This document shows, piece by piece, positions 34,853 to 61,249 of a stretch of DNA of 64,000 bases. Positions within the stretch are counted from its first letter, which is position 1. Each line of letters opens with the position of its first letter. The DNA is from Tsukamurella pulmonis (GTDB lineage Bacteria; Actinomycetota; Actinomycetes; Mycobacteriales; Mycobacteriaceae), in assembly GCF_900103175.1 (NCBI RefSeq), contig NZ_FNLF01000002.1, positions 620,001 through 684,000 of the forward strand, written 5' to 3'. The notes below the pieces were generated by a model. It was given only the letters and a program-made list of their open reading frames with translations. It searched no databases and was not told the DNA's origin. The position numbers and the translations under genes are program-made.

Positions 34853-34866
34853 TGGAACCTGTTACA
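34853..34866. promoter_or_regulatory. KstR operator, exact match
   Basis: TGGAACCTGTTACA matches the KstR pattern TnnAACnnGTTnnA at all eight fixed positions. It lies 79 bp upstream of the Mce-associated membrane protein gene, so that gene is a probable member of the cholesterol regulon. Confidence 0.75.
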
Positions 34867-36347: not shown

Positions 36348-37520
36348 TCAGACCTTACTCAGCACCAAACCGCTGGTCGGCACCCCGGTCCCGGCGGTGA
36401 CGACGGCGCGTTCCGCCCCGGCGATCTGGTTCGCCGCGCTCCCGCGCAGCTGTCGCACCGCCTCAGCGATGCCGTTCATGCCGTGGATGTACGCCTCCCC
36501 GAGCTGGCCGCCGTGCGGGTTGAGCGGCAGGGCCCCGTCGAGCTCGCACGTCCCGGCTGCGAGGTACGACGGTGCCTCGCCCCGCCCGCAGAAGCCGAGT
36601 TCCTCGAGCTGCATGAGCACGTAGGGGGTGAAGTGGTCGTACAGCACGGCCAGGTCCATGTCCGACGGTGCCATGCCCGCCTGGGCCCACAGCTGGCTGC
36701 CGACCACGCCCATCTCGGGCAGGCCCGTGAGTCCGTCGCGGTAGTAGCTGGTCATCACGTACTGGTCGGGGCCCGCGCCCTGTGCGGCGGCGGCGATCAC
36801 GGCCGGGGTCTGCTTCAGGTCGCGGGCGCGCTCGGCGCTGGTGATCACCAGCGCCACACCGCCGTCCGACTCCTGGCAGCAGTCGAGCAGGTGCAGCGGC
36901 TCGGCGACGAACCGGGAGGACTGATGTTCTTCCAGCGTGATCGGCTTGCCGTAGAACCAGGCGCGGGGATTGGTGGCGGCCCGTGCCCGGTCGAGCACCG
37001 CGACGCGGCCGAAATCCTCACTGGTGGCGCCGAAGTCGTGCATGTAGCGGCGGGCCGCCATCGCGACGGTGGCCGCCGGGGTGGCGATCCCGGCGGGGTA
37101 GTGGAAGGCGTTGTCGATGCCGTTGGTGTTCACCTGCTGGGCCGCGGCGCTCGAGACCTGACCGAAGCGGTGCCCGGAGCGCTCGTTGAAGGCGCGGTAG
37201 GCCACCACGACGTCGGCCACGCCGGTGGCGACGGCCATCGCCGCCTGCTGCACGGTGGCGGCCGCGGCGCCGCCGCCGAAGTTGATGCGGCTGAAGAACT
37301 TCAGCTCCGGGATCCGCAGCTCGCGGGCGACGGCGATCTCGGAGTTGGTGTCCATCGTGAAGGTCACCAGGCCGTCCACGTCCTGCGGGGTCAGGCCCGC
37401 GTCGTCGAGGGCGGCGCGCACGCATTCCACGGCGAGCCGCAGCTCGCTGCGGCCGGAGTCCTTGGAGAACTCGGTGGCGCCGATGCCGGCGATCGCGGCC
37501 CTGCCGCTCAGTGCGCTCAT
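36348..37520 (-). CDS. ltp2: Ltp2-type thiolase-fold aldolase for steroid side-chain cleavage
   Basis: A 390-residue thiolase-superfamily lipid-transfer protein (AAIAGIGATEFSKDSGRSEL, FNERSGHRFG, YDHFTPYVLMQLEELGFCG, LNPHGGQLGEAYIHGMN). Ltp2 works with the DUF35 part of ChsH2 to cleave 17-hydroxy-3-oxo-4-pregnene-20-carboxyl-CoA by a retro-aldol reaction, giving androstenedione and propionyl-CoA. ATG 37520 overlaps the chsH1 stop. It matches Rv3540c in length and order. Confidence 0.92.
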   Translation of the reverse strand: MSALSGRAAIAGIGATEFSKDSGRSELRLAVECVRAALDDAGLTPQDVDGLVTFTMDTNSEIAVARELRIPELKFFSRINFGGGAAAATVQQAAMAVATGVADVVVAYRAFNERSGHRFGQVSSAAAQQVNTNGIDNAFHYPAGIATPAATVAMAARRYMHDFGATSEDFGRVAVLDRARAATNPRAWFYGKPITLEEHQSSRFVAEPLHLLDCCQESDGGVALVITSAERARDLKQTPAVIAAAAQGAGPDQYVMTSYYRDGLTGLPEMGVVGSQLWAQAGMAPSDMDLAVLYDHFTPYVLMQLEELGFCGRGEAPSYLAAGTCELDGALPLNPHGGQLGEAYIHGMNGIAEAVRQLRGSAANQIAGAERAVVTAGTGVPTSGLVLSKV

Positions 37521-37933: not shown

Positions 37934-38040
37934 CGTGCCTCCCGGGCGGGCAGGGTCAGGTCGTCGTCATCGCGCAGCGAAGTGGGGGACGTCACCGGGC
38001 CTCCCACGCGGGCAGTGTCAGATCGTCGTCGACCCGCAGG
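37930..38040. repeat. Partial tandem duplication of the chsH2 3' end
   Basis: Bases 37930-37977 and 37992-38039 agree at about 39 of 48 positions at a 62-bp offset. Both encode the same C-terminal sequence (LRxDDDLTLPAxEAR then TGA) in the minus-strand frame. The outer copy keeps the ATGA junction with chsH1; the inner copy is the one now used to end chsH2. Confidence 0.8.
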
Positions 38041-38978
38041 AAAACGGCGCGCACCGGCATGCCGATCTCGACGGCGGTCGGGTCCACGTCGATCAGCTCG
38101 CCGAGCACGCGGACGCCCTCGTCGAGCTCGACGAGCGCCACCACGAAGGGCAGGCGCTTGCCGGGGACCTTCGGGTGGTGGTGCACGACGAAGCTGAAGA
38201 CGGTCCCGGTACCGGGGGAGACCACGTAGTCGGGCGCGAGGGTGAGGTCGCCGCCCGGGTCCATCGGCCCAGGCGGGTGTCGCAGGGTCTCGCCCCAGCG
38301 CTGGATGCGCAGCTCGCCGATCTTCGCGCCTTCCCAGTAGAAGGACGTATCGCGCGAGATCACCGGGCGCAGTACGCCGCCGGCGTAGGCGGAGGCGTCC
38401 ACGATCCGGCCGCTCGGCCCGGCGTCGGGAACGGTGGTCTCCGGTGCATCGGACGCGGGCGGGCGGAACTTGAGGATGCGGAAGACCATCTCGGCGACCA
38501 CCTCGTCGCCCACGCGCCAGAGTGTGCGGGTGGTGAAGAACCAGCCCTCGCCGAGCCCGGTCTTCTTCGGTCCCACCACGTCCTCGAGGCGCGACGAGGC
38601 GGTGATCTCCTCGCCGGGCCGCACGTGCCGGTGGTAGGTCTGGTCCGAATTGGTCGCGACGACCGAGGTGAAGCCGAGCTCGTCCAGGGCCTCGGTCATG
38701 AGGCCGAGCGGGTCGTCGCCGGCGCGCTCGCCGTGCAGGCCCCGCATGGACCACACCTGCGCCATCGCGGGCGGAGCGACGGGTCCGCCGAAGCGCGACC
38801 TCGCGGCGAACTCCGGGTCCGCGTAGAGCGGGTTGGTGTCGCCGATCGCCTCGGTCCAATTGTTGATCATCGGCTGGTTCACCGGATCCCGGCCGGCGCG
38901 CGGCGTGGAATCGCCGAGCGCACGGATCCGCTCGGCTGCGGCGTGCACGGCCGCGGTGGTGTCCGTCGCGGCGGTCAT
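37992..38978 (-). CDS. chsH2: ChsH2-type MaoC/DUF35 fusion (hydratase plus aldolase partner)
   Basis: 328 residues. The N-terminal MaoC-like domain (about 20-170) has PMINNWTEAIGDTNPLYADPEFAA and APPAMAQVWSM. The C-terminal DUF35 OB-fold (about 200-328) has SFYWEGAKIGELRIQRWGETLRHPP, VSPGTGTVFSFVVHHHP and MPVRAVFLRV. The MaoC part pairs with ChsH1; the DUF35 part binds Ltp2. It starts inside the dehydrogenase stop (ATGA) and ends 58 bp before chsH1, a gap filled by the duplicated tail. Usual zinc-ribbon cysteines of DUF35 proteins are not evident. It corresponds to Rv3542c. Confidence 0.9.
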   Translation of the reverse strand: MTAATDTTAAVHAAAERIRALGDSTPRAGRDPVNQPMINNWTEAIGDTNPLYADPEFAARSRFGGPVAPPAMAQVWSMRGLHGERAGDDPLGLMTEALDELGFTSVVATNSDQTYHRHVRPGEEITASSRLEDVVGPKKTGLGEGWFFTTRTLWRVGDEVVAEMVFRILKFRPPASDAPETTVPDAGPSGRIVDASAYAGGVLRPVISRDTSFYWEGAKIGELRIQRWGETLRHPPGPMDPGGDLTLAPDYVVSPGTGTVFSFVVHHHPKVPGKRLPFVVALVELDEGVRVLGELIDVDPTAVEIGMPVRAVFLRVDDDLTLPAWEAR

Positions 38979-41269
38979 CGGGGCACCCGCGGCAGTTGCA
39001 GGCCCATGAGGGCGATCAGTTCGCGCTGGATCTCGTTGACCCCGCCGCCGAAGGTCAGTACCAGGTGCCGCTTGGCCTGGATGTCGAGCCACTGCAACAG
39101 CTCCGCGGTCGCCGGGTCGGACGGGTCGCCGTGTGTCCCGACCGTCTCCTCCAGCAGTGCCGTGAGTCCCTGGATGCGGTCCGAGCCGAAGACCTTGGTG
39201 GCGGAGGCGTCAGCCACGTCGACGGGGCCACCCGCCTCGGCGGCAGCCACCTGCCAGTTCAGGAGCTCGTTGATGAGCTCCGCTGCGCGGACCCGGGCGA
39301 GCGCCCCGGCCACGTCGGGGTCGCCCAGCAGGTCCTTCTCGTGCGCCCACGCGTCGACCCGGTCGTGCAGCACGCCGATGCGGCCCGACGGACCGAGCAT
39401 GACCCGCTCGTGGTTGAGCTGGGTCGTGATCAGCTTCCACCCCTCGTTCTCGGCGCCGACCAGCATGTCCACCGGCACGCGGACGTCGTTGTAGTAGGTG
39501 GCGTTCACGTGGTGCGCGCCGTCCGCGGTGATGATCGGCGTCCAGCTGTACCCGGGATCCTTGGTGTCGAGGATGAGGATCGAGATGCCCTTGTGCTTGG
39601 GGGCGTCCGGATCGGTGCGCACGGCGATCCACACGTAGTCGGCGTCGTGGCCGCCGGTGGTGAAGATCTTCTGGCCGTTCACCACGTAGTGATCGCCGTC
39701 GCGGACCGCGGTGGTGCGGATCGAGGCGAGGTCGGTGCCCGCCTCGGGCTCGGTGTAGCCGATCGCGAAATGGATCTCGCCGGAGAGGATCTTGGGCAGG
39801 AACCGCGCCTTCTGTTCCTCGGTGCCGAAGGCCTGCAGCGTGGGTCCGACGGTCTGCAGTGTGACCGAGGGCAGCTGCACATCGGCGCGGGAGGCCTCGT
39901 TCGCGAACAGGTACTGCTCGATCGGACCGAACCCCTTGCCGCCGTACTCGATCGGCCATCCGACGCCCAGCCGGTCGTCGATCCCCATGCGGCGGACAAC
40001 GTCCCGGAACGCCTCGCCGTGCCGCTGCACGAGCATCTCGGCGCGTTCCTCGGGCGTCATCAGGGTCGAGAAGTAGTCGCGCAACTCGGCCTGCAGGGCA
40101 CGTTGGGAGGTGGTGAGCGCCAGGAAGCGTCCCGACTCGTCGGCGTTCGTCGCATCATCGCGGTGCGCGGCCGACAGGGCGCGCACGGTCTGTGGGACGC
40201 CGCCGACGAACCGGGTCAGATCCTTGATCGTCGAGTAGAACCGGTGCAGCGGGTAGGTGACGTCGACCCCGATACCGCCGTGCAGGTGATGGCAGGTCCG
40301 CACGGCCGCCGGCGCCTCCGCCGCCAGCCAGTGCGCGGCGAGCGCGGTCGCCTCGTCCGCGGGCGAGCCGGTACCCACGCGCCACGCTGCGGACGCGGCG
40401 GCGAGGTGCAGGGTGCGGGAGGCGATGTAGACGTCGGCGATCTGCTGGGCGACGGCCTGGAAGGCGCCCAGCGGGCGCCCGAACTGCTCGCGCTTGCGCA
40501 GATGATCGACGGTGAGCGCGAGCGCCCCGGCGAGCGCACCGTCGGCGACGGCGGCCGCGCCCGACAGACCGCACTCGCGCACCGCCTGCGCGACGGTCCC
40601 GTCGGTCGAACCGCCCAGAACGGACTCGGCGGGAAGCTCCACGCCCGCCAGGTCGACGGTGCCCTCGGCCGCTCCCGTCGAGGTGGGGCTCGGGGTGACC
40701 GTGACGCCGGGCGCGGGCGCGGGCACCAGGAAGACCGCAGCGCCGTCGTCGGTGGTCGCGCTCACCAGGAGGTGGGCGGCGTGCTGTGCGTAGCCGACGG
40801 CCACCTTCCGGCCGGTGAGCGCCCAGCCACTCGCGGTGCGGACGGCGCGGGTGGACGGCGCGGTGGGCACGGCGGCGCCGACCTCGCTCAGCGCGCCGAC
40901 GATGAGCTCCTCGCCGGTCAGGGCCGCGGGCAGGAGCCGGCGCCGCTGATCGTCGGTGCCGTGGACGGCGACCGGGAGGATGCCGAGCGCGAGGCCGGGC
41001 AGGACCGGGGCCGCAATCGCGAGCCGGCCGGCCTCGGTGAGCACCGCGGCCACCTCCTCCGCCCCGAGCCCGGCGCCGCCGAGATCCTCGGGTGCGGCGA
41101 GGCCGAGGAGATCGGCACGGGCGAGGTCGGCCCACGTGGCGCGCCAGGCCCCGTCGGACCGGTCGACGCCCCCGGCGGCGTCCGTGCTCTCGCGCGCGGC
41201 GGCGTGCCCGAGCACGTCGGCCGCGAGGCCGGCGACGGCCACCTGGTTCTCGTCCGGACGGAAGTCCAC
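38975..41269 (-). CDS. Fused ChsE1-ChsE2 acyl-CoA dehydrogenase for the steroid side chain
   Basis: 764 residues, twice the size of a normal acyl-CoA dehydrogenase, made of two complete halves. Residues ~1-370 match the ChsE1/FadE28 type (RKREQFGRPLGAFQAVAQQIADVYI, HHLHGGIGVDVTYPLHRFYSTI). Residues ~385-764 match the ChsE2/FadE29 type (GWPIEYGGKGFGPIEQYLF, IGYTEPEAGTDLASIRTTA, NGQKIFTTGGHDADYVW, FGGGVNEIQRELIALMGLQ). A short polar linker joins them. In M. tuberculosis these are separate genes whose products form an alpha2beta2 enzyme. GTG 41269 is chosen for its CAGGAG spacing. A KstR box lies 35 bp upstream. Confidence 0.9.
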   Translation of the reverse strand: MDFRPDENQVAVAGLAADVLGHAAARESTDAAGGVDRSDGAWRATWADLARADLLGLAAPEDLGGAGLGAEEVAAVLTEAGRLAIAAPVLPGLALGILPVAVHGTDDQRRRLLPAALTGEELIVGALSEVGAAVPTAPSTRAVRTASGWALTGRKVAVGYAQHAAHLLVSATTDDGAAVFLVPAPAPGVTVTPSPTSTGAAEGTVDLAGVELPAESVLGGSTDGTVAQAVRECGLSGAAAVADGALAGALALTVDHLRKREQFGRPLGAFQAVAQQIADVYIASRTLHLAAASAAWRVGTGSPADEATALAAHWLAAEAPAAVRTCHHLHGGIGVDVTYPLHRFYSTIKDLTRFVGGVPQTVRALSAAHRDDATNADESGRFLALTTSQRALQAELRDYFSTLMTPEERAEMLVQRHGEAFRDVVRRMGIDDRLGVGWPIEYGGKGFGPIEQYLFANEASRADVQLPSVTLQTVGPTLQAFGTEEQKARFLPKILSGEIHFAIGYTEPEAGTDLASIRTTAVRDGDHYVVNGQKIFTTGGHDADYVWIAVRTDPDAPKHKGISILILDTKDPGYSWTPIITADGAHHVNATYYNDVRVPVDMLVGAENEGWKLITTQLNHERVMLGPSGRIGVLHDRVDAWAHEKDLLGDPDVAGALARVRAAELINELLNWQVAAAEAGGPVDVADASATKVFGSDRIQGLTALLEETVGTHGDPSDPATAELLQWLDIQAKRHLVLTFGGGVNEIQRELIALMGLQLPRVPR

Positions 41270-41303: not shown

Positions 41304-41317
41304 TGAAACGTGTTCTA
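41304..41317. promoter_or_regulatory. KstR operator, exact match, between divergent steroid operons
   Basis: TGAAACGTGTTCTA fits TnnAACnnGTTnnA fully. It is 35 bp from the ChsE fusion start on one side and 52 bp from the LLM oxidoreductase start on the other, so it can repress both directions. Confidence 0.85.
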
Positions 41318-48055: not shown

Positions 48056-48069
48056 TAGAACAGGTTCCA
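48056..48069. promoter_or_regulatory. KstR operator upstream of kstD, exact match
   Basis: TAGAACAGGTTCCA matches the KstR pattern fully, 85 bp upstream of kstD. The gene on the other side runs in the same direction, so the site serves only the kstD operon. Confidence 0.85.
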
Positions 48070-61222: not shown

Positions 61223-61236
61223 AGCAAGTGCTTGGT
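61223..61236. promoter_or_regulatory. KstR2 operator 1
   Basis: AGCAAGTGCTTGGT fits the KstR2 pattern AnCAAGnnCTTGnT. It lies 19 bp upstream of fadD3 and shares its last base with the KstR-type site. Confidence 0.85.
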
Positions 61237-61249
61237 AGAACACGTTACA
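61236..61249. promoter_or_regulatory. KstR-type site abutting KstR2 operator 1
   Basis: TAGAACACGTTACA fits the KstR pattern TnnAACnnGTTnnA at all fixed positions. It is directly next to a KstR2 box, in a promoter normally ascribed to KstR2 only. Confidence 0.65.

Follow-up and report, generated by a model that had tools for sequence, protein, structure and literature searches.

The locus considered here raises the question of whether the two subunits of a steroid acyl-CoA dehydrogenase (ACAD), ChsE1 and ChsE2, known from Mycobacterium tuberculosis as FadE28 and FadE29, have been joined into a single chain and, if so, how often such a union has come about. The gene lies in a stretch of 64,000 nucleotides of the Tsukamurella pulmonis genome (assembly GCF_900103175.1, contig NZ_FNLF01000002.1, positions 620,001 to 684,000), hereafter called the window, to which all coordinates refer. 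Our analysis indicates that it very probably encodes a single-chain ChsE1-ChsE2 steroid ACAD for the C3 side chain, working in the manner proposed below, and that the fusion is real, conserved and recurrent. This reading builds on the reading frame, the grouping of the two halves, the complementarity of their motifs, the operon context, the recurrence of the fusion and the loss of the internal start, all of which were observed. The gene and its parts are as follows.

38975..41269, minus strand: fused chsE1-chsE2 gene, 764 amino acids, open throughout
40175..41269, minus strand: ChsE1/FadE28-type half, residues 1-365, without the catalytic Glu and bearing the motif R260-x-Q262-F263 on the side of the flavin adenine dinucleotide (FAD)
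40118..40174, minus strand: linker, residues 366-384 (19 residues), varying in sequence and length between lineages
40127..40129, minus strand: CGC codon (Arg381), at the site of the ChsE2 ATG or GTG start of the split pairs
38978..40117, minus strand: ChsE2/FadE29-type half, residues 385-764, the catalytic half
39407..39409, minus strand: Glu621, the predicted catalytic base (LNHER), shared by all ChsE2-type halves of the alignment and absent from the ChsE1-type ones

The fused gene starts at a GTG at 41269, with AGGAG 5 nucleotides ahead of it, while an alternative, longer TTG start would give a protein of 774 amino acids. At the junction of the two halves there is neither a stop nor a change of frame. 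All 16 Tsukamurella genomes searched carry the fused gene, 15 of them without a break in its frame; the matches span residues 1-764 in 13 genomes, residues 38-764 or 39-764 in two, and residues 222-764 in the remaining one (G009), in which a frame break inside the ChsE1 half (locus L111) explains the partial match. In this same genome the LLM oxidoreductase and Ltp2 genes of the cluster are broken as well, and the breaks are probably assembly errors. Since the halves lie in one frame instead of being encoded as two separate subunits, the gene was classed as a fused variant. In the split pairs the codon four before residue 385 is a start codon in 44 of 44 cases (ATG in 28, GTG in 16). The ChsE2 start codon is absent from 35 of the 38 fused genes and kept in three, its replacements being Arg in 15 Tsukamurella genes, Thr or Asn in three copies of genus g10, Pro in five genes of g6, Ala or Thr in three of g4 and Lys in nine of family f25. 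In-frame start codons near residue 385 of the window gene are found 23 codons before it (GTG) as well as 11 (TTG) and 19 (ATG) codons after it.

The two halves were assigned to the ChsE1 and ChsE2 types by several approaches. In Pfam, three ACAD domain families were matched, each in two stretches of the fused protein, and in phmmer searches against solved structures residues 1-365 matched Tcur3481 (6wy8_A, E 5e-53) and residues 390-762 matched Tcur3483 (6wy8_B, E 3.3e-106). These structural matches divide at the junction, and the next structure after 6wy8 is 4x28, which we take to be ChsE4/ChsE5. Of the NCBIfam models, 21 were listed for the fused protein, all of them short of their cut-offs. 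For phylogenetic analysis, adjacent ChsE1- and ChsE2-type halves were taken from 86 loci (L052 and L107 being one gene), giving a ChsE2 tree of 77 rows after removal of nine near-copies or repeats and a ChsE1 tree of 76 rows, from which the Acidimicrobiaceae row was removed as well. In a broader tree that combines a reduced set with ChsE3-like and ChsE4/5-like halves, and in which the ChsE4/5-like pairs L103 and L134 were read as outgroups, both halves of the window gene fell within a 26-row igr-type group with Shimodaira-Hasegawa-like approximate likelihood ratio test (SH-aLRT) values of 100 for ChsE1 and 99 for ChsE2, the tree being of a quick kind and carrying a long-branch warning. They stood apart from the ChsE3-like halves, of genes named by layout and position, and from the ChsE4/5-like halves. 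Frame, Pfam and structure matches thus bear out the claim of an earlier note, made from the window's letters, that both halves are complete and in the order of the split genes with a short linker between them, and the phylogeny of each half, which that note had proposed as a check, agrees with it.

The conserved motifs of the two halves complement each other. When 84 pairs were aligned jointly, with L020 and L052 omitted and two ChsE4/5-like pairs of reverse order included, the Glu of LNHER (E621), whose role as catalytic base we take from homologous enzymes, was found in 84 of 84 ChsE2-type halves and in none of the 84 ChsE1-type halves. R260, Q262 and F263 were each present in all 84 ChsE1-type halves, and the ChsE2-type halves had the corresponding R in 14, the Q in none and the F in none of 84. 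Of the 38 fused frames, 31 were aligned as proteins, and every one of these has E621, R260, Q262, F263 and G264. In steroid ACADs of this sort the Glu is carried by one subunit only, the dimer interface binds FAD, and there are two active sites in the alpha2beta2 enzyme (PMC8399759, in excerpt); one fused chain would thus have one active site. From these considerations we infer the reaction, the FAD stoichiometry and the quaternary structure of the fused enzyme. The ChsE1 half would contribute the FAD-contacting R-x-Q-F motif and no base, and the ChsE2 half the catalytic Glu, so that a single composite active site, holding one FAD, is expected per chain, and a pair of fused chains should, by analogy, imitate the alpha2beta2 tetramer, as would the homodimer that the earlier note predicted. 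The enzyme would put a double bond into the last side chain (C3, pregnane-20-carboxyl-CoA type), and the product would then be hydrated by ChsH1-ChsH2 and cleaved by Ltp2.

The distribution of the fusion was followed in a family survey (cut-off E 1e-110, 301 genomes), a class survey (E 1e-120, 393 genomes) and an order survey (E 1e-205, 397 genomes); genera, families, genomes and loci are given here by our own codes. The large surveys score the top two to three candidates per genome, so that a second copy or a weakly matching fused gene may escape them. A genome-contig scan gave 16 loci without the fused genes of other genera, and the genome survey searches were relied on instead. For a fusion to be called, the two halves had to share one frame. 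The length of the open frame alone was rejected as a sign of fusion: in the high-GC DNA of G077 and G112, the open frame that holds a split ChsE2 gene runs to 720-764 codons, with ChsE1 in another frame. In the family survey 234 of 301 genomes matched and, among the matches listed, at least 53 span both halves, at least 40 of them free of stops and at least 13 with exactly one stop. By genus, the stop-free matches listed comprise 15 in g1 (Tsukamurella), three in g10 (an extra, second copy), five in g6, 14 in g4 and three in g9; g4 was matched in 15 genomes, the fifteenth, G189, lying outside the matches listed. In the class survey 69 of 393 genomes matched, and in f25 the match was free of stops across both halves in 12 of 13 matching genomes, one being partial. 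The order survey matched 19 of 397 genomes and gave no further fused genus at 1e-205; in five f3 genomes both genes lie in one frame with one TGA between them. Beyond Tsukamurella, the fusion is thus present in four more genera of its GTDB family and in one further family of the class; g4 is, at a guess only, Dietzia-like and f25, likewise at a guess, Nocardioidaceae, and g29 is presumably Mycobacterium. Two loci, L022 and L027, on contigs titled as a Bifidobacterium breve metagenome-assembled genome, matched this ACAD at about 30%, which is unexpected for that genus; the contigs are perhaps misbinned.

The recurrence of the fusion raises the further question of the number and direction of its origins. 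The changes needed between fused and split states amount to six on the ChsE2 tree and seven on the ChsE1 tree, and the starred branches force six changes in both trees alike. Topology tests covered a clade of all fused genes and the pair of Tsukamurella and g10 copies; a single clade of all 30 fused rows was rejected on the ChsE2 half (approximately unbiased test, p-AU 1.57e-12). The trees suggest that some five or six lineages came by the fusion separately. We infer that the change ran from split to fused, a direction favored because the outgroups are split and the replacements of the start codon are varied. In genus g24 fission is possible, but it is disfavored because a GTG stands at the ancestral ChsE2 start position and ChsE2 lies in another frame. 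Fusion would have come about through loss of the chsE1 stop and of the chsE2 start codon in adjoining operon genes, and comparable fusions would have formed independently in several lineages of actinobacteria, arriving again at the layout seen in CasC and ChsE3-like enzymes. On balance we lean, by a modest degree, towards a convergent ChsE1-ChsE2 fusion gained some five to six times among actinobacterial steroid degraders, mostly with loss of the internal start and with the subunits made inseparable, under repeated selection for a covalent link between the catalytic half and the inert half on the FAD side; the CasC/ChsE3-type enzymes may have taken a like path at a much earlier time.

The surroundings of the gene are consistent with a role in steroid side-chain degradation. 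The fused gene heads an igr-type operon behind a KstR-like box, with the following features.

37992..38978, minus strand: ChsH2-like MaoC plus DUF35/OB (oligonucleotide/oligosaccharide-binding) hydratase subunit, with PF01796 (ChsH2 OB domain) and PF13452
37517..37933, minus strand: ChsH1-like MaoC hydratase subunit, with PF01575 slightly below its cut-off
36348..37520, minus strand: Ltp2-like aldolase, matching the lipid-transfer protein model PRK07855 above cut-off
41304..41317, no strand: KstR-like palindrome TNNAACNNGTTNNA, 34 bp ahead of the start of the fused gene

The end of the fused gene and the start of the ChsH2-like gene share 4 nucleotides (ATGA, stop and ATG overlapping), and the name Ltp2 for the product of 36348..37520 follows from its position and family. 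Scored with what we take to be the KstR consensus, the palindrome TNNAACNNGTTNNA occurs at 34853-34866, 41304-41317, 48056-48069 and 61236-61249, that is four times in the window against 0.09 expected, and these sites likely mark a steroid regulon across the window. Other genes of the window, whose neighborhood was annotated in part, fit steroid-ring degradation, namely those of a FAD_binding_2 protein (KstD-like), an HsaA-like protein of ACAD fold (KstD-like and HsaA-like being names of our own), a BphC-type dioxygenase, a flavin reductase and a ferredoxin reductase. Of 25 fused loci with flanking sequence and unbroken frames, 21 have the order E1-E2-ChsH2-ChsH1-Ltp2, and one further locus stops at a contig end within ChsH2. 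A ChsE3-like frame of about 700-850 codons lies directly upstream in many loci outside g29. In f25, ChsH2 matches are split over two frames (MaoC and DUF35) in six of nine loci; in these (L117, L118, L122, L123, L124 and L136) ChsE1-ChsE2 is fused and the parts of ChsH2 are apart, the opposite of M. tuberculosis in both respects. Elsewhere in the T. pulmonis genome there is a ChsE4-ChsE5-like pair (L103) with its halves in reverse order (4x28_A, E 5e-176; 4x28_D, E 5e-84), and the fused gene is the only ChsE1-ChsE2-type pair found in this genome, as the next-best pair is this ChsE4/ChsE5-like one. Further long frames bearing ACAD domains were noted at C2:3491727-3493517 (905 codons) and C2:2136616-2138585 (802 codons).

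Several points weigh against a single-chain enzyme of repeated origin as we describe it. Placing the Tsukamurella and g10 copies in one clade was not rejected on the ChsE2 half (p-AU 0.197), so that five lineages rather than six are possible; on the ChsE1 tree the fused genes of g9 do not form a single clade, and gain cannot be told from loss by counting changes. Three of the 25 flanked fused loci, the g10 copies, have no ChsH2, ChsH1 or Ltp2 alongside, and three fused genes of g9 (L069, L070 and L071) retain the ATG at the junction. The C3 steroid-CoA substrate of the fused enzyme was deduced from gene context, and the linker may join halves that belong to different active sites. As separate observations, the g10 loci L059, L060 and L061 have a split igr pair and a second, fused ChsE1-ChsE2 adjoining a ChsE4/5-like pair, and the g9 genes, each a single frame with the ChsE2 ATG kept, may be young fusions or may still make both products.

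Among other explanations, the merging of two separate genes by a sequencing or assembly error can be set aside with the greatest assurance. Such errors do happen, as the frame breaks in three cluster genes of G009 illustrate; however, the frame is unbroken in the other 15 Tsukamurella genomes, whose identity goes down to 64-67% and whose linker is divergent yet intact, and Arg replaces the ChsE2 start codon in 15 of the 15 Tsukamurella genes counted, which leaves this explanation with practically no probability and rules out the hidden stop at the junction that the earlier note had named as one way to refute it. A frame that is single but nevertheless yields two subunits, through an internal start or cleavage of the linker, with a two-chain tetramer as the working enzyme, would fit the variability of the linker and the junction ATG of the three g9 genes. 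Yet no Shine-Dalgarno-like sequence was detected, in a crude scan, before the start codons near the junction of the window gene, and the ancestral start codon has been lost from nearly all fused genes (35 of 38), so that we consider a two-subunit product improbable. The 1:1 ratio of the halves, which the earlier note had derived from the fusion, accordingly follows from one chain without a likely internal start, as far as that crude scan tells.

A dehydrogenase of the CasC/ChsE3 (FadE34) type, acting on C5 side chains, would likewise be a fused protein; its half order is equal and its length similar, CasC being a known fused two-ACAD enzyme (PMC8399759, in excerpt), and the window gene also has two fused ACAD units with Glu in the C-terminal unit only. 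However, both halves fall with the igr-type rows, in the quick tree in which ChsE3-like genes stand in for CasC/FadE34, ChsH2-ChsH1-Ltp2 come after the window gene, and a separate two-ACAD frame of 806 codons (L003) exists in the genome, its C-terminal half falling among the ChsE3-like ones. An enzyme of this type is therefore even less probable than a two-subunit product, and a ChsE1-ChsE2 fusion is preferred. A different matter is whether this ChsE1-ChsE2 fusion acts on the side chains of bile acids and not of cholesterol. The best structural matches belong to the Thermomonospora curvata enzyme, which is termed bile-acid-specific (PMC8399759, in excerpt), and the window has no cytochrome P450 with the heme motif that we take to be of CYP125/142 type, unlike the g29 loci, where this motif adjoins ChsE1 in seven of seven flanked cases. 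On the other hand, a P450 frame with this motif (L101) is found about 34 kb from the fused gene, no second ChsE1-ChsE2-type pair was found in the genome, and Tsukamurella paurometabola has been credited with a cholesterol pathway, although without mce4 (PMC4810484, in excerpt). An exclusive bile-acid role thus appears unlikely, and both roles may well be compatible.

The earlier note had set the fusion against the split form of M. tuberculosis and had called for a survey of both. The survey upholds the presence of the fusion and makes it less exceptional than that reading implied, because it recurs in other lineages and CasC shares its layout. Fused two-ACAD steroid dehydrogenases are already known, namely CasC and the ChsE3-like enzymes. 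The fused form of ChsE1-ChsE2 was not found stated in the accessible portions of the open-access literature searched, and earlier notice elsewhere is quite possible. Steroid ACADs of two subunits depend on the heterotetramer for their activity (PMC8399759, in excerpt), and natural single-chain versions with differing linkers provide ready tests of whether halves pair within a chain, as well as single-gene parts for steroid biotechnology. Moreover, the series from split genes through in-frame neighbors with one stop between them to fused genes outlines a route from a heteromeric to a single-chain enzyme. Annotation that names one half only can make chsE1 seem missing, as is perhaps the case in the Nocardioides simplex gene table. 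In this table, chsE2/casL (KR76_12325) stands just before chsH2, chsH1 and ltp2, no chsE1 is named, and casM and casN are entered separately (PMC7807495, in excerpt). The entry is as expected for the same kind of fusion, a likeness drawn from the table listing, and the words "fused" and "fusion" are absent from the accessible text of that paper.

Compared with known systems, the window locus resembles the igr operon of M. tuberculosis in the order of the ChsE1 and ChsE2 halves followed by ChsH2, ChsH1 and Ltp2 (PMC8708139, in excerpt), a likeness set by the published description of the operon. It differs in that the enzyme is one chain instead of two, with a 19-residue linker and the ChsE2 start codon lost, and in that no CYP125-like gene (cyp125) adjoins it. 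The closest solved structures to each half are those of Tcur3481-Tcur3483 from T. curvata (PDB 6wy8 and 6wy9), an alpha2beta2 steroid ACAD preferring C3 side chains (PMC8399759, in excerpt), which is made of two separate chains, in contrast to the single chain of the window enzyme. The same complementarity of the halves is seen in ChsE4-ChsE5 (FadE26-FadE27, PDB 4x28), which is split and, in this genome (L103), has the reverse gene order with the catalytic subunit first. Double size in a single chain is also a property of FadE34/ChsE3. Likewise, CasC of Rhodococcus jostii RHA1 consists of two fused ACAD units with Glu in the C-terminal unit only and the N-terminal unit needed for FAD, and its substrates are bile acids bearing the full C5 side chain rather than shorter ones (PMC8399759, in excerpt). 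CasC thus shares the fused two-ACAD layout and the C-terminal position of the Glu with the window enzyme, whereas the ChsE3-like fused genes that represent it in the tree form a group separate from the window gene.

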